Source: Candidatus Aegiribacteria sp.
GTDB taxonomy: Bacteria; Fermentibacterota; Fermentibacteria; Fermentibacterales; JCC-6
Assembly (NCBI GenBank): GCA_013138965.1
Contig: WTBT01000102.1
Coordinates: 1-34,159 of the forward strand
Direction of reading: 5' to 3'
DNA length: 34,159 nucleotides
The notes below the pieces were generated by a model. It made no database searches. It saw nothing but the letters and a program-made list of their open reading frames with translations, and had not been told where the DNA came from. Shown piece after piece: positions 1,002-28,094 of this stretch (positions are counted from its first letter, which is position 1; each line of letters begins with the position of its first letter). The translations under genes were made by a program, and so were the position numbers.

Positions 1002-1099
1002 AGGTGAAGCATAATGAAAATTGTGCCAAAATTCAAGATACGACCCCAATAGCCCTCCCACGCAACTCTCTTTTGTTTCTTCACCGTTGAATTATCCTG

Positions 1100-1943: not shown

Positions 1944-3263
1944 TCAGAGAATCTTTCCGGCGGCCTTCGAAATGATATCCAGTCCCATCAGAATCTCTTC
2001 GTCGGTGATATTCAGCGGGGGTCTGAATCTGATGCTTTTCTCGCCGCAGGGAAGAATGATGGCTCCGTTTTTAAATATTTCAGCAACCATACTGTCCCTG
2101 GTTTCGCTGTCGGGAAGATCAAACGCGCACATGAGGCCTTTGCCCCTTATGTTGGAAATCTGCTCGGGGTATTTCTTCTGCAGGTTCCCCAGACCATCAA
2201 GCAGGGTTTCACTTCGAGAACGAACATTCTCAAGAATGTTCTCGTTGACCATTATATCGAGGTATTTGTTGCATCTTACCATATCCACGAGATTACCGCC
2301 CCAGGTGGAGTTCAATCTGCTGGATTCATGGAAAACGTTGTTCTCAACATTGTCGACCCGCCTGTTCGAGGCGATGCCGCAGACCTGTGATTTCTTGCCG
2401 AAGCAGAAAATGTCAGGTTCTACCCCTATTGACTGCCAGGCCCACCATTCACCGGTGAGTCCCATGCCTGTCTGGATTTCATCGAATATCAGCAGGAATT
2501 CATGTTTGTCGGCTCTATCGCGAAGCTGCCGAAGGTATTCAGGTCTGAAGTGATTGTCGCCGCCTTCTCCCTGGATAGGTTCAATAACCATGCACGCGAT
2601 ATCATGACCATACTTGCTGATGGCATCGTCTATCTGGGCGAGTGATTTCTTTTCAGCCTCGATAACCGCATCCAGATTATCCTCAAGAGGGAACACAATG
2701 GAGGGGGGATCCACCCTGGGCCAGTCGAACAGAGGGAAGTACATGTACTTCCTGGGGTCAGCGGTATTTGTCAGGGAAAGCGTATATCCCGTTCTTCCGT
2801 GGAAGGCGTGCCTGAAATGGATCACTTGCTTGCCGATCTCGCCTCTTCCGGCCTTGAGATTCTGCCTTACCTTCCAGTCGAAGGCTGTCTTCATGGCATT
2901 TTCCACTGCAAGGGCGCCGCCAGACACGAAGAAGAGGTAGGGATGACTGTCGGGAACAACCGTATCAGCGAAAGCCTCCACAAATGAGGCGAGTTCTTCG
3001 GTATAGAAATCGGAGTTGGAAGGCTTGTTTATGGCTACATCAGCAAGATGGCTTCTGAACTCTTTCGTGCAGAGAGCGGGATGGTTCATTCCAAGAGGTG
3101 CTGACGCGAAAAAGCTGAAGAGATCGAGATAATCCCTGTCTTCAGCTGCATCGTGTATGGTGCTTCCTCTGCTATTTTTGAGATCCAGTACCATATCAAA
3201 CCCGTCTGCAAGCATATGGTCTGAAATTGTGGATCTGACTTCTGATGTTGGTATGTGTTTCAT
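1944..3263 (-). CDS. lat: L-lysine 6-transaminase (lysine epsilon-aminotransferase)
   Basis: A class III PLP aminotransferase of 439 residues. It matches the lysine epsilon-aminotransferase subfamily rather than general ornithine/GABA transaminases. Diagnostic blocks are FASAPLGMNHPAL, NKPSNSDFY, FFVSGGALAVENA, FRHAFHGRTGYTLSLTNT, EPIQGEGGDNHFRPE, IFDEIQTG and CFGKKSQVCG, and the PLP lysine is the second Lys of FGKK (about residue 291). The family converts L-lysine and 2-oxoglutarate to allysine (2-aminoadipate 6-semialdehyde) and glutamate, in lysine breakdown or stress-linked lysine turnover. The frame opens at two upstream GTGs, but the strong AAAGGAG at 3272-3278 overlaps them and lies 8 nt from the ATG at 3263, which is therefore the chosen start. 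It heads a two-gene minus-strand unit with the aldolase. Confidence 0.92.
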   Translation of the reverse strand: MKHIPTSEVRSTISDHMLADGFDMVLDLKNSRGSTIHDAAEDRDYLDLFSFFASAPLGMNHPALCTKEFRSHLADVAINKPSNSDFYTEELASFVEAFADTVVPDSHPYLFFVSGGALAVENAMKTAFDWKVRQNLKAGRGEIGKQVIHFRHAFHGRTGYTLSLTNTADPRKYMYFPLFDWPRVDPPSIVFPLEDNLDAVIEAEKKSLAQIDDAISKYGHDIACMVIEPIQGEGGDNHFRPEYLRQLRDRADKHEFLLIFDEIQTGMGLTGEWWAWQSIGVEPDIFCFGKKSQVCGIASNRRVDNVENNVFHESSRLNSTWGGNLVDMVRCNKYLDIMVNENILENVRSRSETLLDGLGNLQKKYPEQISNIRGKGLMCAFDLPDSETRDSMVAEIFKNGAIILPCGEKSIRFRPPLNITDEEILMGLDIISKAAGKIL

Positions 3264-3272
3264 GTACACCAC

Positions 3273-3486
3273 TCCTTTCCAGAGATTGAAATTACTTTTG
3301 AACGCCGGTGCCCGGCTGTCTGATTACATAAGACAAAACACTTTTTGACGAATGTCTCCAAATCTCACTTCCGCAATGGTTTTTGTCAACACTTCTTGCA
3401 GGAGAGAATATGCAGGAAGTATATTCATGCTGTATTTTGAAAGCGTCACAGTACTGAACCGTGAATCATTCTTACAGGGGGCATCA
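3273..3486. other. divergent intergenic region between lat and ptb
   Basis: A 214-nt spacer between divergent genes that must hold both promoters. On the plus strand a weak sigma70-like pair TTGCAG (3398-3403) and TATATT (3422-3427, spacer 18) lies about 60 nt before ptb. A short GC-rich hairpin (GCCGG-TGC-CCGGC, 3304-3316) falls in the presumed lat leader. No riboswitch consensus was recognised. Confidence refers to the spacer holding regulatory DNA, not to the exact boxes. Confidence 0.4.
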
Positions 3487-4413
3487 ATGGAACCTATCAG
3501 AAGTCTTGAGGAAATGAAAATAATTGCCAGGAAACTCCCCTCAAAACGGGTAGCCGTTGTACGTGCCGATGAGGTTGAAACCATGGGCGCAATAGGTTCT
3601 GCAGTTAAGGATGACATGGCGGATGCTGTGCTTATCGGTCCCGAGAAGGGGATCAGGGAGGCCGCTGAAAAGGCTGGCTTCGATCTCAACGGTGTGGAGA
3701 TCATCCATGCGGAGGATGACAAAACGGCATCCTTCAAAGGTGTTGAAGTTATCCGTTCCGGCAATGCGGATCTGATAATGAAGGGTTTTGTAGCTTCAAG
3801 TACTTTTCTGAAAGCCATTCTGGACAGAGAAAAGGGGATCAGGGGCCCAGGAGTCCTGAGCCATGTTGCCGCATTTGATGTTCCCGGATACCATAAGCTT
3901 CTGATCATTACTGATGCAGCCATGAACATAGCCCCGGATTACGATCAGAAAGTCGCGATGCTCAAAAATGCCGTTATTGTGGCCAGGGCCCTTGGAATCG
4001 AACATCCCAAATCAACCTATGTGTGCGCCAAGGAAGTTCCCTACGAGAAAATGCCCTGCACCATGGAAGCTGCAAGGATGAAGGAAATGGCGGATGCCGG
4101 AGAGTTCGGGGACATTATCTTCGACGCCCCGCTTGCCATGGATCTCGCCGTATCGTCCGAAGCCTGCAGGATCAAGAAGATCGACACCCCTGTCGGAGGT
4201 GATGCGGATATCCTTGTCCTCCCTGATATAGAGGCTGCCAATATTCTTTACAAATCATTGATCTTCATCTCAGGTGGAGAGCTGGGAGCTGTTATCATGG
4301 GGGCCAACAACCCGGTAGTCCTTACATCAAGAGCCGATTCCGCTGAATCAAAACTATGTTCTATTGTCCTATCAACTGTTGTTGCCAATTATAGTGCCGA
4401 AGGGCGGGACTGA
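3487..4413 (+). CDS. ptb: phosphate butyryltransferase / phosphate acetyltransferase family
   Basis: A 308-residue member of the PTA/PTB family; the length fits phosphate butyryltransferase. The family exchanges CoA of butyryl-CoA (or other short acyl-CoAs) for phosphate. Seen here: MGAIGSAVKD near residue 35, DLIMKGFVASSTFLKAILD near 95, GPGVLSHVAAFDVPGYHKLLIITDAAMNIAPD, and a C-terminal VGGDADILVLPDIEAANILYKSL block typical of Ptb. The open frame begins at 3352, but the ATG at 3487, preceded by ACAGGGGGC, matches the family start. No butyrate kinase is next to it, so ATP recovery would need a distant kinase. It is the first gene of the long plus-strand run and overlaps rpiB by one base (TGATG). 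Confidence 0.88.
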   Translation: MEPIRSLEEMKIIARKLPSKRVAVVRADEVETMGAIGSAVKDDMADAVLIGPEKGIREAAEKAGFDLNGVEIIHAEDDKTASFKGVEVIRSGNADLIMKGFVASSTFLKAILDREKGIRGPGVLSHVAAFDVPGYHKLLIITDAAMNIAPDYDQKVAMLKNAVIVARALGIEHPKSTYVCAKEVPYEKMPCTMEAARMKEMADAGEFGDIIFDAPLAMDLAVSSEACRIKKIDTPVGGDADILVLPDIEAANILYKSLIFISGGELGAVIMGANNPVVLTSRADSAESKLCSIVLSTVVANYSAEGRD

Positions 4414-5946: not shown

Positions 5947-7388
5947 AACCTGTTTTAATTACGTTATGGATTTTCGTACTTGTGCTGCCGGTTGTTGCCT
6001 GCGGATTCGGAGATGGGACCAGTGAAAGCGGGAGCCCGGGCTCCGATCTGTACGTTACCGCTGCCGACGCGGGTACTCAGAAGTTCGCGGTTTCAATTCA
6101 GGGCGACGCTGTGGGATACATGCAGCTGGATATTGCTGACCATGGAACCGATTCCCTTCTCATAACGCAGACCATCAGCTGGAACATGATACTCATGGGC
6201 AACCGGAGAGACATTGAAATGAGCTTGATCGCTGTTTCGGACAGGGAGTACAATCTGGGGCGCATGGAGATGCAGATGTCCGACGGTTCCGCAACTATTA
6301 CAATAAGGGCCTGGAGGCAGGATTCTCTTCTGCTTTCGGAAATAGGCACGGCTGGAAGGGTAATAGAGAATTCAACCGTTATCGAGGGTGATTATCTGCC
6401 GGTTCTGGCCGATCTGGCTTGCGCCTCGATGGAATGGACGGAAGGACAGGAGAGAACCTTCCAGTCCTTTGACCCCGCCAGCGGTATGATACTCTCATCC
6501 ACAGCTGTATGCTCCGGTTTCGAGGAAGTATCTCTTCTTGGCGATACCGTAAATGCGGCCAGACTGAGGCTTTCGCAGATGGGAACGAGGAATACCATAT
6601 GGGTATTCGAGGGTCAGATCATCAGAGAATACGAAGAAGGTCTCGGTATGGACATGACACGTGTCCCACCAGAGCAGGGAGGCGACATTGTGGCAACCAG
6701 AGATCTCTACGAAGTGTTTGCCGTATCCTCAACTCCGATCTCGAACCCCAGAAGCACAGAGCCCAGAATCTTCGTTCTGCAGGGAGAGATAGACTGGAGC
6801 CTGTTCCAGCTGAACATTCCGCCCATCCAGACAGCAATCGGCTGTACTGTGGCGGTTTCAAATGGCATACCTGGCCGGATCGCTCAATTCCCCCCGTCAA
6901 TACCCGAGGAACTGAGGGAATACACCCTTTCCGAGCCTATGATACAGAGCGATGATTCGGTAATTACTTCGATGGCGGCCAGTCTGACAGATGGTTCAGC
7001 CGATTCGTGGGAAGCCGCCAGAAGAATCGCTTCATTCGTTGACATCAGTGTTGAGAACAGCCCTACGGTTTCACTGCCTTCAGCTGTGGACGTGATGGAG
7101 AACCTCAGGGGAGACTGTAACGAGCACACCATACTCACTGTGGCTCTTGCCCGCGCGGCGGGTCTGCCGGCCAGGATCTGTGCCGGTATCGTATATCTGA
7201 ACGGCTCGTTCGGATACCATGCCTGGCCGATGATCTGGACGGGAGAATGGGTAGCGATGGATCCGACATTCAGCCAGTACGTTGCGGATGGAACCCATAT
7301 CATCCTGGCTACGGGAGATCTTGAATCCCAATACGTTGTCAACTCTGCAATCGGCAGGTTAAGCATTATCGAGCTGGAAAAGGACTGA
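5943..7388 (+). CDS. lipoprotein with C-terminal transglutaminase-like domain
   Basis: A 481-residue exported lipoprotein. The N-terminus is a signal peptide ending in the lipobox VVAC with lipidated Cys20, followed by a Gly/Ser-rich linker. Residues about 45-280 contain beta-rich sequence I cannot assign. The C-terminal 120 residues are a transglutaminase-like (papain-fold) domain with the triad Cys392 (LRGDCNEHT), His426 (GYHAWP) and Asp440 (AMDPTF). Such domains in bacteria may act as cysteine peptidases, amidases or crosslinkers on cell-envelope protein; the substrate is unknown. The start at 5943 overlaps the epimerase stop (ATGA) and matches the signal peptide. It ends in a TGATG overlap with ribD, so it is translated within the riboflavin run although it has no evident link to that pathway. 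Confidence 0.82.
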   Translation: MKPVLITLWIFVLVLPVVACGFGDGTSESGSPGSDLYVTAADAGTQKFAVSIQGDAVGYMQLDIADHGTDSLLITQTISWNMILMGNRRDIEMSLIAVSDREYNLGRMEMQMSDGSATITIRAWRQDSLLLSEIGTAGRVIENSTVIEGDYLPVLADLACASMEWTEGQERTFQSFDPASGMILSSTAVCSGFEEVSLLGDTVNAARLRLSQMGTRNTIWVFEGQIIREYEEGLGMDMTRVPPEQGGDIVATRDLYEVFAVSSTPISNPRSTEPRIFVLQGEIDWSLFQLNIPPIQTAIGCTVAVSNGIPGRIAQFPPSIPEELREYTLSEPMIQSDDSVITSMAASLTDGSADSWEAARRIASFVDISVENSPTVSLPSAVDVMENLRGDCNEHTILTVALARAAGLPARICAGIVYLNGSFGYHAWPMIWTGEWVAMDPTFSQYVADGTHIILATGDLESQYVVNSAIGRLSIIELEKD

Positions 7389-8506
7389 TGATTTCCCGGG
7401 CCGAAACCCATGCAATGAAAAAGGCTCTGAAACTGGCGGCGTGCGGCAGGGGCAGCGCCTTTCCCAATCCCATGGTTGGCGCGGTCATTCTTGACCGCAA
7501 TGGTAATTATGCGGGAGATGGCTTTCACAGGAAATGCGGAGCACCCCATGCCGAAGTGATCGCCATTGCGTCTGCGGGTGAGGCTTCATCGGGCGGCACA
7601 ATGGTCGTAACCCTGGAGCCGTGCTGTCATCATGGCCGTACCGGGCCATGTACCGATGAAATTATCAGGGCGGGGATCTCAAGGATTGTCGTTGCCATGA
7701 CCGATCCCGACCCGAGGGTGAGCGGCAGGGGAATAGAACAGCTCGAGTCGGCGGGAATTGAAGTAGAAACAGGACTCTTTTCGGGGGAAGCCCGCACACT
7801 TAACAGGGTATATCTACACTACCTTGAAACATCAAGAAGCTGGGTCACCCTCAAGATAGCCCTGAGCCTTGACGGCAGGACAGCAGCGGCCGATGGAAGC
7901 AGCAGATGGATATCATGCGACAAATCTCGCAGGCGGGTACACCGGATGCGAGCTTCTGTTCGGGCTGTACTGACAGGAGCGGGAACTGTACGAGCGGACG
8001 ATCCGGAATTGACAGTTCGTCTGGCTGATACCCTGCCTGGCAGGCAGCCTGTGCGTATAGTAGTTTCGTCCACCGGTGATTTTGGAGAGTCATGGAAGTT
8101 TTTCAGGAACCCCGGAAGAGTTATCATCGCTGTCCCGGAGGGTGTGGCTGCGTGCCTGACCGAATACACAAGTATACCAGGAGTGGATGTGTGGGAATTC
8201 CCCACGGATTCCGGAATCCGGGGTATCAGCCTTGCTTCGCTTTTTGAAAGAACCGCTGCGGAAGGTATCGGCTCCATCCTCTGCGAAGCGGGAAGCGGTC
8301 TTTCCACACGGCTGCTGAAGGATGAGCTGGTTGATTCGGTCAGCATTTTCACTGCGCCGGTGATATTTGGGGGGGAGGGAAGACCCGCCTTTGAATTACT
8401 TGGGATAGACAATATTGAAAATGCGATAAGGTTGGAAAATGTTTCATCCCGTCGCTCCGGGTCCGATTTTCTTACGGAGGGCTGCGTTGTTTACAGGTCT
8501 GATTGA
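7388..8506 (+). CDS. ribD: bifunctional riboflavin deaminase-reductase
   Basis: A 372-residue two-domain enzyme for the second and third steps of riboflavin synthesis: deamination of the GTP cyclohydrolase II product, then NADPH-dependent reduction of the ribosyl chain. The deaminase domain (1-145) has the zinc site His54-Ala-Glu56 and PCCHHGRTGPC (Cys79, Cys88). The reductase domain (about 150-370) begins VTLKIALSLDGRTAAADGSSRWIS and includes GAGTVRADDPELTVR and a C-terminal IFTAPVIFGGEGRP. Length is normal. It starts by a one-base overlap with the lipoprotein stop and overlaps ribE by 20 nt, giving strict translational coupling of the pathway. Confidence 0.95.
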   Translation: MISRAETHAMKKALKLAACGRGSAFPNPMVGAVILDRNGNYAGDGFHRKCGAPHAEVIAIASAGEASSGGTMVVTLEPCCHHGRTGPCTDEIIRAGISRIVVAMTDPDPRVSGRGIEQLESAGIEVETGLFSGEARTLNRVYLHYLETSRSWVTLKIALSLDGRTAAADGSSRWISCDKSRRRVHRMRASVRAVLTGAGTVRADDPELTVRLADTLPGRQPVRIVVSSTGDFGESWKFFRNPGRVIIAVPEGVAACLTEYTSIPGVDVWEFPTDSGIRGISLASLFERTAAEGIGSILCEAGSGLSTRLLKDELVDSVSIFTAPVIFGGEGRPAFELLGIDNIENAIRLENVSSRRSGSDFLTEGCVVYRSD

Positions 8507-9098: not shown

Positions 9099-10317
9099 CA
9101 GAATAACCGGGGCAGAGGAAGCTATAGGAGCCATCAGCAGCGGAAAAATGGTCGTTGTGGTGGACGACGAGAACAGGGAGAACGAGGGAGACCTGATAAT
9201 CGCGGCCGAAAAGTGCGATGCTGAGGCTGTGAATTTCATGGCGCTGGAAGGGAGAGGTCTTATATGTCTTTCAATGGAAGAAAAGGCCCTTGAGAGATTG
9301 GACATTCATGAGATGGTTCCCAGGAATACTTCCCTCCATGAAACAGCGTTCATGGTCAGTATCGACGCGATTGAGGGAGTGTCCACAGGTATATCCGCCC
9401 ACGACAGGGCCAGAACAATCGCAGTGGCATTGGATCCCTCTTCAGAAGCGTCCGATCTGGCCAGACCTGGTCATATCTTCCCGCTGGCCGCGAGACCCGG
9501 AGGTGTCCTTTCCAGGACAGGACATACGGAAGCCGCTGTTGACCTCGCCAGGCTGGCAGGGCTCAGACCGGCAGGGGTTATATGCGAGATCATGAACCGG
9601 GATGGTTCTATGGCAAGACTTCCGCAGCTCATTGAATTTGCTCGGAAGCACGACCTTATTCTTACATCGGTCGAGGAACTGGTTCGATACCGCAGGAAAA
9701 CCGAAAAGCTGGTCAGAGAGACAGCCAGATCAACACTGCCCACAGACTACGGCTTGTTCGACCTTCATGTATTCGAAAGCATCACAGAGGGAGATTTGCA
9801 TGTAGCACTGGTGAAAGGTGATGTGAAGGGCCGTGACAACGTACTTGTAAGGGTTCATTCCCGGTGCCTTACGGGAGATGTCTTCGCCTCCCGCAGGTGT
9901 GACTGCGGAAGCCAGCTCCACGCGGCGATGGAAAAGGTTGATAGCGAGGGGCTGGGAGTAATTCTCTACATGGCGCAGGAAGGACGTGGAATAGGCCTGG
10001 CAAACAAGATAAAAGCTTATCACCTGCAGGATCACGGGCTGGATACCGTTGAAGCCAACGAGGAACTGGGTTTCCCCGCAGACCTGAGAGATTATGGTAT
10101 CGGGGCACAGATCCTTGCTGAACTGGGCCTCACAACAATAAGGCTGATGACGAACAACCCTAAAAAGATCGTAGGGTTGAAGGGATACGGCCTGGAGATC
10201 ACGGAAAGGGTCAGAGTAGAGATTCCGCCTACGGAAGAGAATCTTCAATACCTCAGAACTAAAAAGACAAAGCTCGGACATATGCTGGAGGGAGTGGACG
10301 ATGACCTGGATTCATGA
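9088..10317 (+). CDS. ribBA: bifunctional DHBP synthase / GTP cyclohydrolase II
   Basis: A 409-residue fusion making both riboflavin precursors. The N-terminal half (1-205) is 3,4-dihydroxy-2-butanone 4-phosphate synthase, with the acidic [11 protein letters not shown] motif (27-36) and [11 protein letters not shown] (His146); it uses ribulose 5-phosphate, the product of RpiB upstream. The C-terminal half (about 210-400) is GTP cyclohydrolase II, with zinc cysteines 260, 271 and 273 ([18 protein letters not shown]) and QEGRGIGL. Both sets of active residues look intact, so both activities are likely. The start is a TTG at 9088 after a GAGGA site. It overlaps ribH by 17 nt. Confidence 0.95.
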
Positions 10318-18145: not shown

Positions 18146-19315
18146 ATGAAAAAAGTATTTTCTTCCTCCTGGGGGCAGCTGGAAAAAGGCGGTTCAAACG
18201 TTGGCGATGAGGCGATATTCGCCTCACAGGTCCGGGACATCTCTTCTCTTGACGGTATCCGGATAGGTGTGATGTCCGCTGTTCCGGAAAAAACGGAGAA
18301 GGTTTATGATGTGAAACCTTTCGATGTGTCGAAGGGCAAGCTCCGCGCAATGACCCGTGGTGTCAGGTGGTCCGATGTAGTGATAGTCGGTGGAGGGGAA
18401 CTGGCCCAGGACAGGTCATCACTTCTTTACACGCCCTTCAACCTGCACCCCATCAGACTTGCCAGACGTTACAACAAACCGGCTTTTGCCTGGTCAGTTG
18501 GAATCGGACAGGGGAATGAACTGGCAAGATGGACACCTGGCCAGCTCCGGAAATGGCTTGGGTACTGCAGCGGTGTTACTGTCCGGGACAGATCTTCCCT
18601 GGAAACACTCCTTGATCTCGGGCTGAATCCGGAAAAAGTCAGGCTTGCGTCAGATTCCACCTTCACCCTGGCAGGCGACTACGCGCAGCCCCACGGCACA
18701 TCTGAAATTCTTGGTGTAGCCGTAAGGAACGTATCCAACAGACAGGGAAATATTCTACCCCTTGAAATAAGAAAAAAACTCGGCTTTTACAGGGAACCGG
18801 ATGTCACCGGCATCAGAAGAGAATGGGCAAATCTTCTTGACAGGCACATCGATATTCATGGCGGGGAGATACGCTTCTTCCCCTTCCATACCGGAAGCCT
18901 TTCGAATTCAGATGATTTCGAGTGTGAAGCTGTTATGGCCATGATGAAGCACAGTGACCGTGCGACCGTAATCATGCCCACCGGCATCAGGAAATTTCTG
19001 ACAAGCATATCCGAATGCCGGGTAATCCTCACAGTCCCTCTTCACGGATCGATCCTTTCTGTAGTTACCGGCACGATTCCGATCGCCGTACCGTACGCCT
19101 CCAAGGGTTACAGATTCATGGAGGAGGCAGGTATCGCAGGCCTTGCGATCGACTCTTCTTCAGACAGCTGGGGCGAGGAATTAAGCGTATTACTCGAGAG
19201 AACCTGGGACACTTCCCAGAATATTCTGCAGGTTCTGGCCGAAAAGAGGAGTGAACTGGCTGAGAAATGCACCATGAACCTTGAACTTTTCAGGCAGACA
19301 TGCCTGCAGCCATAA
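18146..19315 (+). CDS. polysaccharide pyruvyl transferase family protein
   Basis: A 389-residue member of the polysaccharide pyruvyl transferase (CsaB/WcaK) family, which transfers pyruvate from PEP to a sugar of a cell-wall or exopolysaccharide. Seen: GGSNVGDEAIFASQ near 15, VIVGGGELAQD near 80, FAWSVGIGQG near 110, VTVRDRSSLETLLDLGL near 143, and the C-terminal LTVPLHGSILSVVTGTIPIAVPY with the conserved HG motif. The pyruvylated product could be the attachment point for surface-layer proteins with SLH-like domains, but no such protein is in the window. There is no Shine-Dalgarno at the ATG. nfo follows 7 nt after its stop. Confidence 0.88.
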   Translation: MKKVFSSSWGQLEKGGSNVGDEAIFASQVRDISSLDGIRIGVMSAVPEKTEKVYDVKPFDVSKGKLRAMTRGVRWSDVVIVGGGELAQDRSSLLYTPFNLHPIRLARRYNKPAFAWSVGIGQGNELARWTPGQLRKWLGYCSGVTVRDRSSLETLLDLGLNPEKVRLASDSTFTLAGDYAQPHGTSEILGVAVRNVSNRQGNILPLEIRKKLGFYREPDVTGIRREWANLLDRHIDIHGGEIRFFPFHTGSLSNSDDFECEAVMAMMKHSDRATVIMPTGIRKFLTSISECRVILTVPLHGSILSVVTGTIPIAVPYASKGYRFMEEAGIAGLAIDSSSDSWGEELSVLLERTWDTSQNILQVLAEKRSELAEKCTMNLELFRQTCLQP

Positions 19316-19322
19316 CTTCACC

Positions 19323-20138
19323 ATGATACCGGGAATTCACGCTTCCGTTAGGGGAGGGTTGGACAGGGCGCTTGATACACTCAATGAACTGGGGTTACCC
19401 TGTGGTCAGATATTCACATCAAACCAGCAGCAGTGGAAGGGTCGCGCTATCAAGGAAAGGGAGATTGAGAGGTACAGCGGCAGATCTGTCACAATTATCT
19501 CTCACGCTTCATACCTTATCAACCTCGCCTCAACGGACAGAAGGGTCGTAAAACTCTCCGTTCAAGCTCTGGAAGCCGAGCTGGAAAGAATGCATACACT
19601 TGAAATTGAATGGTGCGTTCTCCACCCGGGAGCCCATCTCGGCGCGGGTGAAGAAACAGGGATTGAAAAGATATCATCGATGGCTGGAAAGATACTGCTC
19701 AACTCGCCTGCGGATACGGGAATTCTCTACGAGAATACCGCTGGACAGGGAACAACTGTAGGGCATACCTTCTGGCAACTCGCACAATTGCTTGAACTTA
19801 CCGACATGCCTGCCCGGACCGGGATCTGTTTCGATACATGCCACGCCTTCGCTGCCGGTTACGACCTCTCTTCCTTCAGCGCTGTCCGGGAAACCATGAA
19901 TAGGTTCAACGATACTGTTGGAATTGAAAGAATTAAAGCCTTTCATATCAATGATTCAAAGAGAGAATGTGGAAGTCACATAGACCGTCATGCCGTTACA
20001 GGAGAAGGACTGATAGGTCTTGAACCCCTGCGATTCCTTGGGTCAATGTCCGAATTCAGAGAAATCCCCGGAATCGCTGAAACACCGGGAACGGACAGGG
20101 ACAGGGCACAGGATATACAAAAAGTACTCGAATTTTAA
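19323..20138 (+). CDS. nfo: endonuclease IV (AP endonuclease)
   Basis: A 271-residue TIM-barrel, trinuclear zinc AP endonuclease of base-excision repair, cutting 5' of abasic sites. Metal-binding and conserved blocks in order: GIHASVRGGL (4-13), SHASYLINLAS, LHPGAHLGAG, YENTAGQG, ICFDTCHAFAAGYDL, FHINDSKRECGSHIDRH and GIAETPG. The frame opens at a TTG at 19281 inside the upstream gene, but the family starts at the ATG at 19323. The last codons (20074-20138) have a diverged second copy at 24717-24782, see findings. Length is normal, so this copy is complete. Confidence 0.94.
   Translation: MIPGIHASVRGGLDRALDTLNELGLPCGQIFTSNQQQWKGRAIKEREIERYSGRSVTIISHASYLINLASTDRRVVKLSVQALEAELERMHTLEIEWCVLHPGAHLGAGEETGIEKISSMAGKILLNSPADTGILYENTAGQGTTVGHTFWQLAQLLELTDMPARTGICFDTCHAFAAGYDLSSFSAVRETMNRFNDTVGIERIKAFHINDSKRECGSHIDRHAVTGEGLIGLEPLRFLGSMSEFREIPGIAETPGTDRDRAQDIQKVLEF
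20088..20104 (+). repeat. left copy of 17-bp direct repeat in the nfo 3' end
   Basis: GGAACGGACAGGGACAG inside the last codons of nfo is repeated exactly at 24735-24751, 4.65 kb downstream. The two copies flank the restriction-remnant and glutamate decarboxylase block, so it may be an attachment-site core. Confidence 0.6.
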
Positions 20139-20173
20139 TATACATATTAGCAATATATTCACTGGGCACATAT

Positions 20174-20332
20174 ATGAAATTTAAGTTACTTGAAAGAGGG
20201 ATTGACGCATACTCCCGCTTTTCTTCCCAAGTGGACAATGTTGTTGAACTGATACTTCGAGCATATCAGAACAGTAATGATGAGAGCTACCGATCAAGGT
20301 GTCTTGATCTGGTAGACTTCCTGATGCAATGA
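20174..20332 (+). CDS. small ORF, 52 residues, possible gene tail
   Basis: An ATG frame at 20174 that ends in an ATGA overlap with the Fic remnant frame. The product (about 52 residues, ERGIDAYSRFSSQVDNVVEL and onward, ending CLDLVDFLMQ) looks like amphipathic helix and may be the C-terminal end of a larger lost protein. No family was recognised and no Shine-Dalgarno is seen. It lies in AT-rich sequence between nfo and the decayed defence genes. Probably non-functional. Confidence 0.25.
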   Translation: MKFKLLERGIDAYSRFSSQVDNVVELILRAYQNSNDESYRSRCLDLVDFLMQ

Positions 20333-20934
20333 GTGCATGGGAGAAATATATACATGCCGATTCGCTGGATCGCCTTGTTCAATTGGCTGTTCTCCATGCC
20401 GAATTCGAGGCTATACATCCATTTCTTGATGGTAATGGTAGACTTGGACGAATGCTTGTACCGTTGTTCATGGCTAAGACTGAACTACTATCTGCCCCCA
20501 TGTTTTACATTAGTGCCTATTTTGAACGAAATCGCGATGAGTATTATGAGCGGCTTCTTACTGTATCACGCGATGGAGATTGGACTCAGTGGGTAAGTTA
20601 TTTCCTGGAAGCAATAATCCAGCAGGCTGAGGAGAATCAAAGGAAAGCTGATGCTATCCTTGGTTTATATGAAAAGAGCAAAGCTGAATTCTCTAAGGTT
20701 ATTCATTCACAGTATAGCATTAATGCTTTAGACTTCATTTTCCAGAGACCGATTTTCCGATCACCGGATTTCATAAAGGATCCAGGAATACCTTCTCCTA
20801 CTGCAAGAAGAATACTGAAATTACTTAGAGATAATGGTACCCTTACGACAGTGCGACCTAGAAGTGGCCGGCGAGCGGGTATTTATGCTTTCTCGGAACT
20901 GCTTAATATTGCTGAAGGGAAGGATCTTTTTTAA
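20308..20934 (+). pseudogene. Fic-family protein, N-terminally truncated
   Basis: The last about 205 residues of a Fic (AMP-transferase) protein of the long, about 370-residue type with a C-terminal winged helix. The catalytic motif HPFLDGNGRLGR is intact at residues 30-41 counted from the ATG at 20329, and PTARRILKLLRDNGTL begins the winged helix. The family's N-terminal half, including the inhibitory region and the FVPP-type loop, is missing. Family-like residues (SGRLPDAM) continue upstream of the ATG until a TGA at 20305, which marks the break. Such Fic proteins are common passengers of type I restriction loci. The ATG at 20329 could still give a short protein, but loss of the N-terminus points to decay. 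Confidence 0.78.
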
Positions 20935-20948
20935 GTGAAATTTATGAA

Positions 20949-21028
20949 CAACAAAACTGGTTATTGCTCATTTTTCGCAAAATTTGATCAACAAACTAGT
21001 TTGTGTGTAATCTGTGAGCAACAAAACT
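20949..21028. promoter_or_regulatory. palindrome flanked by repeated half-sites, possible operator
   Basis: A perfect 14-bp palindrome ACAAACTAGTTTGT (20991-21004) sits between two copies of CAACAAAACT (20949-20958 and 21019-21028) in the same orientation; the palindrome's own left arm reads CAACAAACT (20989-20997). The region is AT-rich and otherwise empty (20935-21068). It resembles a regulator-binding cluster upstream of the former hsdR gene, perhaps for the lost regulator whose winged helix remains at 21418. Confidence 0.4.
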
Positions 21029-21068
21029 ATAGTGTTTTAATAGACAGTGAAATTAAATAAGTAAATTC

Positions 21069-21272
21069 GGATCAGAAAAGGATGCTGTTCAGATGCCCCT
21101 TATCCGGTATGCAGAAGAGATCGGTTGGACATATTTGCCGCCTTCCGAAGCTCTATCGCTTCGCCGGGGTGAAGGCGGCTTGTTATTCAATCGTATTCTG
21201 GAAGAAAAGCTGATTGAGTTGAATCCGGATTTGATTACATCAACCAATGTTAATGAAGTTATCCAGCGAAGA
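21069..21272 (+). pseudogene. hsdR: type I restriction enzyme R subunit, N-terminal fragment
   Basis: About 68 codons matching the start of a class of HsdR proteins: SEKDAVQMPLIRYAEEIGWT, then YLPPSEALSLRRGEGGLLF and ELNPDLITSTNVNEVIQR. The matching frame begins before the ATG at 21093. Homology stops at about 21272 and the frame then runs into unrelated sequence to a stop at 21305. The nuclease and helicase domains (normally some 900 residues) are gone. The fragment is joined out of frame to the tail of a peptidase gene, which shows a large internal deletion. Confidence 0.75.
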
Positions 21273-21411
21273 GGAAGATTTTCAGGAGTATGTCATCGTT
21301 CATGAATTATTGCATCTTCGTATCCCAAATCACGGAATACTCTTCAAGAATCTTATTTCTGTCTATATCCCAAACTGGGAAGAAATAGCCAATCGATCAG
21401 AAAGAGATTAA
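21271..21411 (+). pseudogene. M48/YgjP-like zinc metallopeptidase, C-terminal fragment
   Basis: A 46-codon tail in the +1 frame relative to the HsdR piece: EYVIVHELLHLRIPNHGILF followed by NLISVYIPNWEEIA and a TAA at 21409. HELLH is the zinc motif of the YgjP/DUF45 hydrolase family, which often sits beside hsdR in type I restriction loci. The N-terminal two thirds are missing and there is no start codon. Confidence 0.72.
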
Positions 21412-21417
21412 TAAATC

Positions 21418-21597
21418 CTTGAGTCTGATAGAACGTGTCATTTCATCTATGGCCTTCTGGAGAAAGCAGTATCAAAGATTCTCTTATACATCAACAAGTT
21501 TAATGATTCATATGCAACAGAGATTGCCAACCACTTCTCAATGAATCAGCAGACTGTTCAGTATCACATGGAAAAACTGGAAGCGCTGCCCTTCTGA
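21418..21597 (+). pseudogene. winged-helix regulator fragment
   Basis: Sixty codons without a start codon: LLEKAVSKILLYINKFNDSY, then ATEIANHFSMNQQTVQYHME and KLEALPF before a TGA. The pattern (helix, EIA..F, then a recognition helix Q.TVQYH..KLE) is that of ArsR/MarR-like winged helices found beside restriction or nucleotidyltransferase genes. It breaks off where the wing should follow. Likely a remnant of the same decayed cluster. Confidence 0.5.
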
Positions 21598-21634
21598 TTT
21601 CATTTTGGAACCCATTCGTGGAGTGGATGGGGGC

Positions 21635-21662
21635 TTGACCTGTATAACAGTACATTTATCAT
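21635..21662 (+). promoter_or_regulatory. putative sigma70-type promoter of the gadC-gadB operon
   Basis: TTGACC (21635-21640) and TATCAT (21657-21662) are separated by 16 nt, each one base or two from consensus. They lie about 70 nt upstream of the strong AAAGGAGGAA ribosome site of the antiporter gene. This places the promoter immediately after the decayed defence fragments. Confidence 0.5.
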
Positions 21663-21733
21663 TATCAAATTATTACTACGAAAGGATTGAATCATCCGAA
21701 ATTCTCCATAATCTCAAAGGAAAGGAGGAAACT

Positions 21734-23173
21734 ATGCCTGAATCTAAAGAGAAACGCACCTTGAGTGTTTTCGTTTTGGCGATGATGAATGTTGCCGTTG
21801 TCATGAGTCTTCGTGGGCTTCCGATGATGGCGAAGGAAGGTATGTCCATGATTTTCTACCTTCTTTTTGCGTCGATCCTGTTTCTTGTTCCGGTATCTCT
21901 CGTATCGGCAGAACTGGCAACCGGATGGCCCAGTAAAGGCGGAGTGTATGTTTGGGTAAAAGAAGCTTTTGGTTCAAAACTCGGTTTCACTGCTATCTGG
22001 CTTCAATGGATTCAGAATGTCATCTGGTATCCGACTGTTCTCGCCTTTGCCGCGGGGGCTCTGTCATATCTTTTCATGGATCAATCACTGGCAACCAACA
22101 AAATATTCAGTGTCGCTGTAATACTGATAGTTTATTGGGGCGCAACTCTTGTCAACCTTCGCGGCATGAAATCCGCTGGCTGGCTAACTACAACAGGCGT
22201 AATCGCCGGAACTCTACTGCCGGGTATTTTCATTATTCTACTGGGCATCATCTGGATATCAGGCGGAAATCCCCTGGCTTTCAAATCTGTGGGAGAAGCC
22301 AAATCCTTCCTTCCTGATTTTGGCAACCTTAACAGCCTTGCTTTTCTGGGCGGTATAGTTCTGCTTTTCGCGGGAATGGAAGTTGGTGCGGTTCATGTAA
22401 AGGAACTGAAAAATCCTAAGAAGCAGTTTCCTGCTGCTATTTTTATGGCGATGTTCATAATAATTGGTATTTTCACGCTGGGAGCATTTTCAATAGCGTC
22501 AGTTCTTCCCGCGGGCCAAATAAGCCTTACCGCCGGTATAATGCAGGGGCTGGATAATTTTCTTACGAAATTTGACATCCCATGGTTACTTCCGATTTTG
22601 GGATTTCTTATCGCTTTTGGAGCCATCGGTGGTGTAACTGCATGGATTGCGGGTCCGAGCAAAGGGCTTCTTGCCACAGCACAGGAGGGTGAGCTGCCTC
22701 CATTTCTTCAAAAAGTAAATAAGAACGGAATACAGGTACACATTCTTCTGATTCAGGGAGTAATCGTTACTCTTGTGTCACTTGTTTATCTCCTTATGCC
22801 CAATGTAAGCAGCGCTTTCTTCCTTCTGACTGCTCTTACTGCCTGCCTTTATCTGTTTATGTATATCCTTCTTTACGCGGCTGCCATCAAACTGCGTTTT
22901 TCAAAGCCGGAAGTACCGAGGTCTTTCAAAGTTCCGGGAGGAAACGCCGGCATGTGTATAATAGCCGGGATCGGCATGCTTGCCGTGCTGTTCGCTTTTA
23001 TTATCCTGTTCTTTCCGCCGAGTAACCTGCAGGTGGGAAGCCCTTTGTTCTATACACTCTTCATAGCTATAGGAGTAATAGTCTTTGTTTCTCTTCCTAT
23101 TATCATTAATCACTTCAAGAAACCCGGCTGGATGCCCGGCCAGGAACAGGAAACCGATTCGATAAGTAAATGA
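21734..23173 (+). CDS. gadC: APC-family glutamate:GABA antiporter
   Basis: A 479-residue, about 12-helix amino acid transporter of the APC superfamily, glutamate:GABA antiporter group. The N-terminus (LSVFVLAMMNVAVVMSLRGL) and the GGVYVWVKEAFG and FLGGIVLLFAGMEVGAVHVKELKNPKKQFPAA-type regions parallel E. coli GadC, although residues differ. It should exchange external glutamate for internal GABA across the cytoplasmic membrane. The frame opens at 21605, but AAAGGAGGAA at 21721-21730 fixes the ATG at 21734. The C-terminus (EQETDSISK) is shorter than the pH-gating plug of E. coli GadC, so acid gating may differ. The decarboxylase follows 15 nt downstream, which strongly supports substrate choice. 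Confidence 0.85.
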   Translation: MPESKEKRTLSVFVLAMMNVAVVMSLRGLPMMAKEGMSMIFYLLFASILFLVPVSLVSAELATGWPSKGGVYVWVKEAFGSKLGFTAIWLQWIQNVIWYPTVLAFAAGALSYLFMDQSLATNKIFSVAVILIVYWGATLVNLRGMKSAGWLTTTGVIAGTLLPGIFIILLGIIWISGGNPLAFKSVGEAKSFLPDFGNLNSLAFLGGIVLLFAGMEVGAVHVKELKNPKKQFPAAIFMAMFIIIGIFTLGAFSIASVLPAGQISLTAGIMQGLDNFLTKFDIPWLLPILGFLIAFGAIGGVTAWIAGPSKGLLATAQEGELPPFLQKVNKNGIQVHILLIQGVIVTLVSLVYLLMPNVSSAFFLLTALTACLYLFMYILLYAAAIKLRFSKPEVPRSFKVPGGNAGMCIIAGIGMLAVLFAFIILFFPPSNLQVGSPLFYTLFIAIGVIVFVSLPIIINHFKKPGWMPGQEQETDSISK

Positions 23174-23188
23174 GAAGGAGATAATAAG

Positions 23189-24583
23189 ATGCTGCATGAA
23201 AAGAATAAAGAAAATATGGAGGAGCTGATCGCTCCGGTTTACGGTTCTGAGTTCGCTGCAAAATCACTTCCTAAATACAGGATGCCTGAAGAGGATATGC
23301 CTCCTCGAGATGCCTATCGTCTTATACGTGATGAACTCATGCTCGACGGAAACTCCCGTCAGAATCTTGCCACATTCTGTACGACCTTTATAGAACCTGA
23401 AGTCCAGCAGCTTATGATCGATTGCGTTGATAAAAACATGATAGACAAAGATGAGTATCCACAAACTGCGGAGATTGAAAGCAGATGTGTTCATATTCTC
23501 GCGGATCTCTGGAACTCTCCTGAACCAGCTTCTACTCTTGGCTGTTCCACAACCGGTTCGAGCGAAGCGGCAATGCTGGGCGGAATGGCGATGAAATGGA
23601 ACTGGCGAGCCAAGATGAAAGCTAAGGGTAAACCAACCGATAAACCGAACATGGTTTGCGGTCCCGTTCAGATATGCTGGCACAAATTTGCCCGTTACTG
23701 GGATGTGGAAATTCGAGAAATCCCGATGGAAGGCAACCGCCTGATAATGACACCGGAAGAAGTTATCAAGCGGTGTGACGAGAACACGATCTGTGTTGTT
23801 CCGACGCTTGGCGTAACTTTTACCGGTCAGTACGAACCGGTCAAGGAAGTGAGTGATGCGCTTGACAAATTCCAGCAGGATACAGGATTGGATATTCCCA
23901 TTCATGTTGACGGCGCAAGCGGTGCTTTTATTGCCCCGTTCCTTCAGCCCGAACTGCTATGGGACTTCCGCCTGCCAAGGGTAAAATCCATAAATGGATC
24001 CGGTCATAAGTTCGGTCTTGCTCCTCTTGGTGTCGGCTGGGCATTGTGGCGATCGAAAGAAGACCTTCCCGAAGATCTTATTTTCTATGTGAATTACCTT
24101 GGTGGCAACATACCTACATTTGCGTTGAACTTCTCCCGTCCCGGGGGAGAAATAATCGCGCAGTACTACAACTTTATCAGACTTGGAAAAACCGGATACC
24201 GGGAAATACACAAAACCTGTCAGGATGTTGCTGTTTACCTTTCGGAAGAGATCGGCAGGATTGGTCCTTTTGAGATCATTTATAATGGCAAAGGCGGCAT
24301 ACCTGCTCTATGCTGGAAACTCAAAGAAGACAGTAAACACAACCTCACTCTCTTTGACCTTTCAGACAGACTCCGCTCAAGAGGTTGGCTTGTCCCTGCT
24401 TATTCCATGCCTGCGAACAGAGAGGATCTCGTGATACAGAGAATTCTCGTTCGTCATGGAACAAGCATGGATCTCGCAGGCCTTCTCCTTGAAGATATCA
24501 GGCGCTGCCTTGACCATTTCGAAAAACATCCTGTCAGTACGCCTCTCACTGAAAGGGAAGCCGGCGGGTTCAAGCACTCGTAA
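23189..24583 (+). CDS. gadB: glutamate decarboxylase
   Basis: A 464-residue PLP enzyme converting glutamate to GABA and CO2, consuming one proton. It is close to E. coli GadB along its full length, for example [44 protein letters not shown] and [16 protein letters not shown] with PLP-binding Lys274. The penultimate His (FKHS) corresponds to E. coli His465, which blocks the active site at neutral pH, so pH control may be kept. The N-terminal helix that mediates membrane recruitment is also present in outline. A strong AGAAGGAG precedes the ATG. With gadC it forms a complete acid-resistance or GABA-export system; only a weak 4-bp hairpin (24587-24598) follows. Confidence 0.95.
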
Positions 24584-24716
24584 CCGCCTGAAGTCAGGTC
24601 TTTACTCTTGACAATTGAGTTGAGATCCTTTGAAAATGGTGTTTGCCGGTTGTCTCTCGCCGGTACAAGTATCGGGATTTCGATAATCGATATTGTCAAT
24701 TCAGGCAGAGAATTAC

Positions 24717-24782
24717 GGAATTGCAGAAACAGCAGGAACGGACAGGGACAGAATAAAGGATATAGAAAAAGTGGTAGAATAA
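24717..24782 (+). pseudogene. nfo: diverged 3' end of a second nfo gene
   Basis: The 21 codons before a TAA read GIAETAGTDRDRIKDIEKVV plus E, against GIAETPGTDRDRAQDIQKVL plus EF at the end of the intact nfo. That is 16 of 21 identical residues and, by my count, 51 of 63 identical bases, including an exact 17-base stretch (24735-24751). Similar but weaker likeness may extend some ten codons upstream. The rest of the gene is absent. The level of divergence rules out a very recent duplication and fits a foreign or old nfo end left at the far side of an insertion. Confidence 0.72.
24735..24751 (+). repeat. right copy of 17-bp direct repeat in the nfo fragment
   Basis: Exact repeat of 20088-20104. 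Together the two copies bracket the foreign block and could be the attL/attR core of an integrated element or the crossover point of a recombination within nfo sequences. Confidence 0.6.
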
Positions 24783-24915
24783 ATATCCGCTCTCTCCGGA
24801 AAATATCATGCTTCTTATTGCTGTATAATCCTGTTATTATTCAAGACAGCTTCATCTGACTCATACACAGGAAGGTTTCTGTTTTGATTATTCAGGCTCG
24901 GCAGGTTCAATCGGA

Positions 24916-25965
24916 ATGAATGTCGCGATAACAGCGGATGTTCATCTATCTGCCGGTGGAAATCATCCAGAACGATACAGCGCTCTTGTGAATATTTTCG
25001 ATAGCCTTGTGAAGCAGGACATTAAAACACTCATAATAGCCGGGGATCTTTTCGATAAGGATTGCAGCAGTTACTCACGGTTTGAGGAGGTCTGCAGGAA
25101 ATACCCTCAGATCTGTATTCATATAATCCCCGGGAATCACGATCCGGACATATCACGGAGCGTTATCGTAGGGGAGAATATCAGGATATACGATTCACCC
25201 GCGCTGGAAGAATTTGATGGTCTGAGTTTTGTTTTCTTACCCTATTCAGCGACTTCCGGAATGGGAGAATGCATTGGGGAGTATAGATCTGAGAAACGCT
25301 GGGTTCTTGTCGGTCATGGTGATTACTTCGGTGGAATGAAACAGCGCAATCCCTACGAGAAGGGGACTTACATGCCCCTGTACAGGAAGGATATAGAGGA
25401 GTTTTCACCTTGGAGAGTCTTTCTGGGGCACATTCATAAACCTGAGAATATTGATAATCTCTACTACCCCGGTTCGCCCTGCGGAATCGACATCAACGAA
25501 ACTGGAAGAAGGCGATACCTTGTATTCAACACCGCTACCGGGCACACCTCCTCAGAAACCGTACGAACGGATGTGATCTATCTGCAGGAGAAATTCCTGG
25601 TAATCCCGGATGAGAATGAGGTTGAGAGGCTCCGAAATGATGCCGCGAAAAGAATCTCAGCATGGGGTTTGAACCAGGAGGACAGAAAAAGAGCCAGAAT
25701 CAGGATAAAAGCCACTGGATACACCAGTGATAGAGAAGTAATCATGGAATGTCTGAAAGATGTATTCGCAGAATACAGTTTCGTTAAGGATGAAGAACCT
25801 GATATCTTCTCACTGTACGTTGCGAAGGACAATCGCAGAAGCGCTATTGCCAGACGGGTTCTGGAGCTGATCGAGGAAATGGAGTGGGAATTCGGCGGAA
25901 ATGAACCTGAGAAGGAGAAAGTCATCGAAACAGCCCTATCGGTTATTTATGGAGCTGGCAGCTGA
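24916..25965 (+). CDS. SbcD/Mre11-like DNA repair nuclease (YhaO type)
   Basis: A 349-residue metallophosphoesterase of the SbcD/Mre11 nuclease family. Five metal motifs: ADVHLS (Asp8, His10), IAGDLFDKD near 43, IPGNHDPD near 74, VGHGDYFGG near 134 and LGHIHKP near 171, followed by YYPGSPCGIDINETG, typical of SbcD/YhaO. The C-terminal about 120 residues are a charged helical region where the ATPase partner would bind. The gene is 2 nt from the downstream SbcC/YhaN-like ATPase, so the two form a nuclease-ATPase complex for processing DNA ends or hairpins. No strong Shine-Dalgarno is seen at the ATG. Confidence 0.85.
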   Translation: MNVAITADVHLSAGGNHPERYSALVNIFDSLVKQDIKTLIIAGDLFDKDCSSYSRFEEVCRKYPQICIHIIPGNHDPDISRSVIVGENIRIYDSPALEEFDGLSFVFLPYSATSGMGECIGEYRSEKRWVLVGHGDYFGGMKQRNPYEKGTYMPLYRKDIEEFSPWRVFLGHIHKPENIDNLYYPGSPCGIDINETGRRRYLVFNTATGHTSSETVRTDVIYLQEKFLVIPDENEVERLRNDAAKRISAWGLNQEDRKRARIRIKATGYTSDREVIMECLKDVFAEYSFVKDEEPDIFSLYVAKDNRRSAIARRVLELIEEMEWEFGGNEPEKEKVIETALSVIYGAGS

Positions 25966-25967
25966 TA

Positions 25968-28094
25968 ATGGGTATCCGTATCGATAGAATATCCATCAAC
26001 CGCGGGGGTCCTCTGAAGGATGATTTCATCCTGGAACCTGAAGGGCTTAACCTCATCTACGGTCTTAACGAAACCGGTAAAACCTATATCGTTGAAGCCA
26101 TGATCAATTTTCTTTTCAAGACCGGGAATAATACCCCCTGGATACTGAAAAGAACTAAATCACAGGAGCCGACACTAAGAGAATGGAAGCCCGGGGGAAA
26201 GATTCTGGTTTCCGGCCTGAAGGATAAAACTACAGTCTTCACCTCCGGGGGAAGTAAGCTTGAGGATTTCAGCAGTTCCGGCAGCCGCCTGCCGGAAGAG
26301 CTGTCCCGTTTGATGGTTGTCCGGGCAGGAGATACAAGACTGTCCTCCACAGGGGATGGGGCCGGTGACAACATTCTCAGAACCTATCTCTCCGGGAAGG
26401 GAGTACTGGACGAGATTGAGAGCGGCATACAGAAAACCGTCAAAAAAGCCACTATTGAAAATGGCACAATAACTATTAATCGTGCAGGGCATCAGGATGA
26501 CAGGCTGAAGGCGGAGAAGAAAAGAAACGAGCTGGAAGCGCTTCAGCTGGAAGTTGATGAAAATGCCTCACTCTGCGCTGTCAATTCCCTTGAGAGGTTA
26601 AAAGATGAGATAGATGGGCAACTCAGTGAGCTTGATGATGCCAAAAAACACAGAGCTTTCATGATTGACCAGGAACTGAGAAAACTTGAGTTTGATATGG
26701 AAGATGTTCCTTCCGAGCAGGATCTGATAGGGCTGGGAACTGACATCAGTCTTAACAGGGCTCAATTCAAGAATCTTAGCGATGTCGAAGAAGAACTTAA
26801 TAGTACGACCGATGAAGAGAACAATTACATCTGGGTTAATAAGGCAAGGGAGGAATACCTTTCGCATGTCGAAGCTCCCTCGAATAGATCCCTGATCGAT
26901 AAGGTCACCCTGGCACTTCTTCTCTTTTTCATTCTGCTGACAGCAGCAGCCGGGTTTTTCAGCAGACCCCTGATGATAGCTGCCGCTGCAGGGGCGGTAA
27001 TCTGTCTCATCACCCGTATCAGGAATAAACCTGAACCCGTCTCGGCATCGGCCGAACTGCATAGAAAGAAACTGGAGGAGGAGTTCAGCAGAAGGTTCCA
27101 GCGAGAGCTGACGGATCCCGCCACACTGCAGGTTGAGTGTCAGAGGATGGAAACGGCGCATATTCAATCTGAGACCCTCAGGAAAAACAGAATAAAACTC
27201 AAGCAGGATATTGAAGCAAAGGAAGCAAGTATTCTGTCCAGACTTCATGCCATTACCGGGGAGGAGATTCCCGGTAACGAATGGGATCTCAGAATAGAAG
27301 AGATCAGGAAAAACAGGAAAGAAATCCGGAAAACAATCAATTCCCTTAATATTGATCTCTCTTCACTCAACATTCAGGAGGATTCGTATCTGCCTGATTC
27401 TCCTTCTGAGGAATGGGATAAGAGACGATATCTGAAACTCGAGGAAGAGTTTAAGGCTGTATCGGAGGAATTGGAGCGGGAGAAGAACAGTATTAAAACC
27501 CTGAAAACGGAGATTTCAGTGGCCACGGGAAACAAAGGGGATATCAGAGAGCTTCTTACCGCCCTGGAGGACACGATAGAAACCGCTGAAAACAAGTACA
27601 AGGACAGTACTGCGCGAATTCTGGCCGAAAATTCTGTTTACAGGGCTGTATGTGAATTCCGGTGCGCGGAGAACGAAAGGCTGGACGAAGCCCTGGGTTC
27701 CGATGAAGTTGCTGCTCCGCTTCAGCAGATCAGCGGGCACTACAATGGATTGAAAATGGACAGTAATGGATACCTTCACCTCTTTACTCCAGGAGGTGAA
27801 GAATTCCCTCTGTCACAGTTGAGTACAGGTGCCGCTGAGCAGGTTTACATCGCTCTCAGAACAGGATTCGCTGAACTCACAATGGGTGAGACAGCTTTTC
27901 TTATTTTTGATGATGCTTTCCAGCATTCTGACTGGGAGCGCAGGAAAAACCTTGTCAACCATGTTATCAAGCTGGTTAAGAACGGCTGGCAGATCTTTTA
28001 TTTCACTATGGATGATCATTTAAAGAAACTTTTTGATAAATCAGGGAAGGATCTCGGAAAGACCGGATACAAATCCGTCAGTCTGAACTATTAA
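25968..28094 (+). CDS. SbcC/Rad50-like ATPase with membrane hairpin (YhaN type)
   Basis: A 708-residue split ABC-type ATPase. Walker A is GLNETGKT (32-39). The ABC signature LSTGAAEQVYIALR (618-631) and Walker B FLIFDDAFQHSD (644 onward) are at the C-terminus, with two coiled-coil stretches (about 180-300 and 360-560) between. Instead of the zinc hook of SbcC, the middle has two hydrophobic segments (about 313-331 and 335-349) that form a membrane hairpin, as in Bacillus YhaN. It is therefore expected to work at the membrane with the SbcD-like nuclease encoded just upstream. The stop codon is the outermost base triplet of a long inverted repeat. Confidence 0.85.
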   Translation: MGIRIDRISINRGGPLKDDFILEPEGLNLIYGLNETGKTYIVEAMINFLFKTGNNTPWILKRTKSQEPTLREWKPGGKILVSGLKDKTTVFTSGGSKLEDFSSSGSRLPEELSRLMVVRAGDTRLSSTGDGAGDNILRTYLSGKGVLDEIESGIQKTVKKATIENGTITINRAGHQDDRLKAEKKRNELEALQLEVDENASLCAVNSLERLKDEIDGQLSELDDAKKHRAFMIDQELRKLEFDMEDVPSEQDLIGLGTDISLNRAQFKNLSDVEEELNSTTDEENNYIWVNKAREEYLSHVEAPSNRSLIDKVTLALLLFFILLTAAAGFFSRPLMIAAAAGAVICLITRIRNKPEPVSASAELHRKKLEEEFSRRFQRELTDPATLQVECQRMETAHIQSETLRKNRIKLKQDIEAKEASILSRLHAITGEEIPGNEWDLRIEEIRKNRKEIRKTINSLNIDLSSLNIQEDSYLPDSPSEEWDKRRYLKLEEEFKAVSEELEREKNSIKTLKTEISVATGNKGDIRELLTALEDTIETAENKYKDSTARILAENSVYRAVCEFRCAENERLDEALGSDEVAAPLQQISGHYNGLKMDSNGYLHLFTPGGEEFPLSQLSTGAAEQVYIALRTGFAELTMGETAFLIFDDAFQHSDWERRKNLVNHVIKLVKNGWQIFYFTMDDHLKKLFDKSGKDLGKTGYKSVSLNY

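Follow-up and report, generated by a model that had tools for sequence, protein, structure and literature searches.

Genes and features of the nfo–sbcD region

The window, by which we mean the whole stretch of DNA analysed here, spans a contig of 34 kb from an assembly of Candidatus Aegiribacteria (Fermentibacteria) that totals 2.92 Mb. Its features from csaB to sbcC are collected in Table 1, and related genomes are referred to by G numbers. The intact nfo matches TIGR00587 at 228.4 bits (cut-off 129.65), is the only nfo match in the whole assembly and ends at the base given in the preliminary description. A csaB gene lies directly 5′ of nfo, with a gap of 1–33 bp, in all 19 genus genomes. On the other side, the gene that we call sbcD-like scores 32.0 bits against TIGR00619 (sbcd), under the cut-off of 77.65 for that family. 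Its spacing to sbcC is 2 bp in the window and never more than that in the 13 genus genomes compared. A flank of ~100 bp 5′ of sbcD is kept throughout the clade, with ATCATGCTTCTTATTGCTG and CCTGTTATTATTC as its best conserved parts, and this conservation suggests that the flank is probably the sbcD promoter.

Table 1. Coordinates of features between csaB and sbcC in the window
Feature	Position	Strand	Basis or remark
csaB-like gene, left core neighbour	18146–19315	+	ORF; named from sequence
nfo, intact deoxyribonuclease IV (endonuclease IV), left anchor	19323–20138	+	TIGR00587
17-mer, copy inside intact nfo	20088–20104	+	
50 bp between nfo and defence fragment	20139–20188	+	Outside blastn matches
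Broken type I restriction/Fic defence fragment	20189–21444	+	blastn to G012, G018
NACHT/STAND-like gene piece	20189–20311	+	blastn; families of intact G012 genes
Fic piece	20309–20931 (ORF from 20329)	+	Pfam, blastn
HsdR N-terminus piece	within 20189–21444	+	Families of intact G012 genes
YgjP-like metallopeptidase C-terminus	21276–21409	+	Pfam, blastn
Stretch with ArsR-type HTH fragment	21445–21634	+	HTH_5, 23.6 bits (cut-off 22)
gadC-gadB unit, horizontally acquired	21635–24585	+	blastn match to G017
gadC	21734–23173	+	In gad unit
gadB	23189–24583	+	TIGR01788, 658.5 bits
Putative displaced 3′ stub of older nfo copy, with own stop	24698–24782	+	Homology to nfo, shuffles
17-mer, copy inside stub	24735–24751	+	
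Spacer and conserved flank 5′ of sbcD	24783–24915	+	Alignment of 12 junctions
sbcD-like nuclease gene, right anchor	24916–25965	+	Metallophos above cut-off
sbcC-like gene	25968–28094	+	Directly after sbcD

Cargo between nfo and sbcD

The block behind nfo differs in composition from its surroundings, with a GC content of 0.39–0.41 at 20.0–22.0 kb against 0.50–0.51 at 17.0–20.0 kb. It had been described as foreign DNA with decayed defence genes and a gad unit, and DNA matches to relatives bear this out. The first part is the remains of a defence locus that is intact in G012, where the order is HsdS, a 1560-residue NACHT/STAND-like protein, Fic, HsdR and a YgjP-like protein. Parts of the last four of these genes survive in the window, from which two internal stretches present in the intact loci have been deleted. 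By blastn, the fragment is 88.6% (123 bp), 92.3% (965 bp) and 84.1% (170 bp) identical to G012, and 90.3% (124 bp) and 93.7% (699 bp) identical to G018, while the Nfo proteins of these two genomes are only 74.3% and 73.2% identical to that of the window.

The gadC-gadB unit matches a different relative, G017, at 85.7% DNA identity over 2967 columns, and the Nfo of G017 is only 63% identical to that of the window. Full or partial gadB matches occur in 7 of 60 relatives (two of the 7 are weak or fragmentary); in 3 of the 60, one from another genus, gadB is 86–88% identical. In G033, which belongs to another genus, gadB is 86% identical and Nfo 48%. Core genes thus diverge far more than cargo between the window and its relatives, and because cargo identity is high where Nfo of the same relatives has diverged, the block is foreign. 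By these matches it is also composite, with at least two separate arrivals. We considered a single mobile element and rejected it, since the relatives matched by the defence piece differ from the one matched by the gad piece, and none of these matches lies at nfo.

A displaced nfo end and its 17-mer

Immediately before the sbcD spacer and flank lies a second nfo tail, at 24717–24779 with a stop at 24780–24782. Its earlier delimitation was exact to the base, as was its comparison with the last 21 codons of nfo (16/21 residues, 76.19%, and 51/63 bases identical). The homology extends somewhat further, beginning 19 bp 5′ of the earlier start, with a 2-bp gap. When the 110 bp that precede the flank of sbcD were compared with nfo tails, the real score exceeded 2000 of 2000 shuffles, so the tail is no chance similarity. 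It directly adjoins the conserved sbcD flank, and the same flank directly follows the intact nfo in G010 and G009. Because of this contiguity the stub marks the old nfo–sbcD junction; aligned with the nfo ends of relatives, the comparison that the preliminary description had proposed for finding the native end, it is the downstream tail that sits there.

When each nfo tail at 21 loci was compared with the DNA that follows it, over as much as 6 kb, only the window clearly stood out (score 90 versus 31) and none of the other 20 did; L043 and L045 scored 36 versus 27 and 29 (20 shuffles), with gapped matches inside sbcD. Nor did any further nfo remnant rise above shuffles upstream of the firm stub of G010 described below, between gadB and the stub of the window, or within 20139–20190, which takes in the 50 bp behind nfo (108, 46, 95 and 107 of 300 shuffles; 51 of 200).

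The preliminary description also reported an exact 17-bp direct repeat, GGAACGGACAGGGACAG, and it is present at both positions. No other 17-mer is repeated in the window, and this one has just two occurrences in the 2.92-Mb assembly, at nfo and at the stub. Together with the order of intact gene, foreign block and displaced tail, this is what would be expected had a site-specific integrative element, with an attachment site similar to the end of nfo, entered at the 17-mer, supplied nfo with a new tail of its own while pushing the native one away, and later lost its integrase. The assembly has 12 tyrosine-recombinase (PF00589) matches elsewhere, and action in trans is conceivable. Against this, the homology of the nfo ends already begins 37 bp before the 17-mer, on its 5′ side, in the window and as far back as codon ~173 in G010. 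An exact run of 17 or more bases arises in 13% of random placements of the matches (52/66 columns identical), and such a run between the nfo ends is unremarkable. No integrase (as had been noted before) or transposase was found in the interval between nfo and stub, among either its ORFs or its Pfam matches, and the window's contig has no PF00589 match. The pieces of the block, matching different relatives at other loci, do not form a unit. We therefore rejected the 17-mer as an attachment core, given the continuing homology, the ordinary run length and the lack of a recombinase in the gap. The proposal that an integrative element with such a core restored nfo did not hold up, and we consider it very unlikely.

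The nfo–sbcD gap across the genus

Fourteen genus genomes, that of the window included, have nfo and sbcD on one contig. The gap is 114–279 bp in 8 of the 14 and 1.1–5.0 kb in the other 6. The insert is a lipoprotein-like gene with an OmpA-family gene in G015, G003, G009 and G002, and a gene for a 278-residue protein in G006; in G011 the gap would be ~8.2 kb if two contigs are bridged by a 25-base exact overlap. The inserts of G009, G003 and G015 lie inside, or replace, the sbcD flank and are not at the nfo end, which also speaks against an element that targets that end. Among the 10 of 32 listed ORFs in relatives' gaps that were scanned with Pfam, none is an integrase or transposase. A small inverted-repeat element lies in the nfo end of G016 and is absent from the window. 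The nfo–sbcD gap is not unique, because the lon–csaB gap also has inserts and is longer than 1.1 kb in 4 of 15 genomes. Variation is general among open gaps that separate transcription units, and the nfo–sbcD gap is one such case.

The closest counterpart to the window is G010. On one of its contigs, C346, the intact nfo is accompanied by a copy of the flank of sbcD and by other genes; another, C425, carries further genes, an nfo stub, the flank and sbcD. The stub consists of codons ~173–200 followed by codons ~250–270, with an internal deletion between. The ends of the two contigs overlap over 102 columns with 92 identities (90%) and with an exact overlap of 0. On this overlap, the contigs are probably adjacent, which would give G010 an anatomy like that of the window around other cargo, ~6.6 kb in total if they adjoin. 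No element gene common to the G010 cargo and the window was seen in the compared gaps. The preliminary description had proposed that, if DNA had been inserted here, some relatives should have an uninterrupted nfo–sbcD junction and others different cargo between the same repeats. The short junctions are there, and so is other cargo in further genomes; the same anatomy is no more than probable in G010.

A third stub precedes a second sbcD, 87% identical to that of the window, on contig C54 of the G006 bin. The start of an oxidoreductase-like gene lies beside it (Pyr_redox_2 under its cut-off). The bin's own sbcD lies elsewhere, and this contig may not belong to the bin. For the window, G010 and this contig, 0 of 2000 shuffles reach the score of the stub. 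In G002, G013 and G011 stubs are absent or undetectable, with 1310, 1551 and 864 of 2000 shuffles reaching the score; a G002 stub of ~11 bp picked out by eye was rejected on the first of these counts.

Origin of the stub

A local duplication followed by decay would also leave a second nfo end. Here a doubling in place of nfo, or of its 3′ part together with the flank of sbcD, would have come first, and foreign DNA would have entered between the copies later, in unrelated events. The G010 stub, which reaches back to codon ~173 and has an internal deletion, looks like a decaying gene copy; the sbcD flank is doubled in G010 too, and differing cargo between copies would be natural. However, none of the 19 genus genomes (61–98% complete) has two full nfo genes, the arrangement that the preliminary description had taken as evidence for tandem duplication over insertion. 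The spacers 3′ of the two G010 copies also differ. Between stub and flank, the window and the G010 stub agree at 21/23 bases, and the window and the more distant G018 at 16/23; the spacer register was picked by alignment, which makes its result of 0 in 2000 shuffles optimistic. The intact nfo of G010 and those of G009 and G003 all join the flank through a short spacer. Each spacer type is thus common to different species, and because the types differ, the intact copy and the stub of G010 seem to have had different lineages as their source; it is unlikely that they were produced by a simple local duplication of recent date. As an explanation of the locus, duplication with decay is a serious but clearly less probable possibility.

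G010 and G013 differ at 6/1150 positions upstream of nfo and at 117/807 within it, and because divergence jumps at nfo, a recombination tract appears to have ended there. At another locus of G010, beside an in-clade DUF2085 gene, there is a foreign nfo 3′ fragment like those of G006 and G014, carrying the gene and flank that follow nfo in those two genomes; on the evidence of this fragment, nfo ends do travel along with the DNA behind them. It also lends some colour to the idea that the stub in the window came with the cargo, as an nfo fragment on incoming DNA, and is not the old native end. Yet the stub runs on without a break into the native flank of sbcD, and its spacer is common to the G010 stub and in part to G018, so that we regard such an arrival as extremely improbable.

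On balance, we favour the reading that the nfo–sbcD gap is a gene-acquisition hotspot operating without an integrase, in which DNA recombining in nfo left the old copy behind as a 5′-truncated stub. On at least one occasion, a fragment that brought in the 3′ part of nfo and other DNA would have recombined by homology inside nfo, and its right end would have joined illegitimately to the resident nfo. The outcome would be a whole nfo with cargo behind it and a 5′-truncated stub of the old copy by the sbcD promoter. Afterwards the stub would have decayed and the cargo turned over, the defence fragment being eroded by deletions and the gad unit arriving. Incoming DNA anchored in nfo is favoured because the G010 spacers, the G010/G013 edge and the travelling nfo fragment point to it together; for the window itself, we infer these recombination steps. 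Looking for a homologous anchor gave the G010/G013 edge at nfo and a truncated stub on the right, and no donor molecule was identified.

The event would be old and its donor not nameable, because the stub is about as far from its own nfo as from others: stubs match their own intact nfo at 48 and 47 of 60 columns, and those of other species at 43–49. The window's own nfo showed no hybrid breakpoint. Mosaic triplets at p < 0.01 number 17/168 in nfo, 12/162 in csaB and 33/168 in sbcD, and without G002 they number 7/105 in nfo and 4/105 in sbcD; in this triplet test of the flanking genes, no excess mosaicism of nfo over csaB and sbcD was found. G002 and G015 are 97% identical in a bin at the nfo end, flanked by bins at 89% and 80%. 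We rejected a recent shared transfer of nfo end and cargo between them, one bin being too little. The assembly has members of the ComEC and DprA families, and their presence permits, but does not demonstrate, the DNA uptake that RecA-dependent recombination of this kind would need. A stronger generalization, which we think rather improbable, is that the 3′ end of nfo serves as a recurrent integrase-free port, where tails would travel with cargo from species to species, each arrival would create a hybrid nfo, and successive arrivals would leave datable stubs.

Comparison with known systems

Integrative elements exist that replace the 3′ end of a protein-coding gene, and the locus shares with them an intact gene, a foreign block and a displaced gene end. 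It differs from them in having no integrase, no sharp core and a composite cargo, and the G010 stub is longer than a core. A literature search on nfo as an integration site, or on integration into protein genes, turned up nothing relevant, which is not proof of absence. The case carries a caution, as a displaced gene end and a short exact repeat need not mean an attachment site.

Hotspots without mobile elements are common, and their mechanism is mostly inferred from statistics. Oliveira et al. 2017 (PMC5635113) describe hotspots of horizontal gene transfer without mobile elements, in which varied genes lie between the same two core genes, and report more homologous recombination in the flanking genes than in other core genes. 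The nfo–sbcD gap resembles these hotspots in its different gene content between the same core pair. Unlike them, it varies between species of an uncultured genus, and a stub would record recombination in the flanking gene. Mosaic signals here are alike in nfo and its neighbours csaB and sbcD. For their part, Kirchberger et al. 2017 (PMC5361080) proposed homology-facilitated illegitimate recombination for Vibrio T6SS effector/immunity arrays and for the orphan 3′ regions of Rhs genes. There, as we propose here, a one-sided homologous anchor lets a module be inserted and moves the old 3′ part downstream; in our case, by contrast, a single-copy repair gene would serve as anchor, and what has moved is a dead stub with no function.

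The host phylum is uncultured and little is known of its gene exchange. A stub of a flanking gene, if read correctly, is a physical trace of recombination and allows single events to be ordered. The locus fits known kinds of system, to which it adds the stub of a repair gene as such a trace.

Divergence at nfo and sbcDC among relatives

In relative G002 (L036), sbcC is just 51% identical to that of the window, whereas lon and csaB are 88-89% identical, which suggests that sbcDC was replaced in this genome. Relatives G010 and G013 share a near-identical csaB region, yet identity falls sharply at nfo and their sbcD genes are 85.7% identical. At another locus of G010, downstream of an in-clade DUF2085 gene, lies a foreign nfo 3' fragment that, with the following gene and the conserved flank that precedes sbcD, resembles the sequences of G006 and G014. 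The nfo-sbcD gap of G018 is AT-rich and, matched by eye, appears to have ATTAGCAATAT in common with the window's first bases after nfo.

Features at the nfo-sbcD locus and elsewhere
Feature	Source	Position	Strand	Details
IS200-like Y1 transposase family protein	window	147-1061	minus	Y1_Tnp, 39.7 bits
Putative Y2-type transposase fragment	L193, reversed	108-533		Y2_Tnp, 21.5 bits (cut-off 20.9)
Inverted-repeat element in nfo 3' end	G016 (L034)	about 8218-8376		roughly 160 bp; ends GGTCGGACRTAACAACGTACAC
Foreign nfo 3' fragment, then 278-residue-type gene and sbcD flank	G010, contig C317 (L075)	about 2606-3934
Near-identical csaB region	G010/G013 (L032 vs L031 reversed)	about 6800-8500 (L032)
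nfo-sbcD gap	G018 (L040)	9954-10235		280 bp

Transposase-like genes and an inverted-repeat element

The Y1_Tnp protein of the window may be of the REP-associated type, and the putative Y2_Tnp fragment lies close to the Fic defence locus in G018. In G016, the inverted-repeat element alters the last codons of nfo. Ends resembling those of this element are present in 9 of the 19 genus genomes, with six copies in the window's own genome, and the distance between the two ends of some pairs is about 1.1 kb, like that of a complete insertion sequence.
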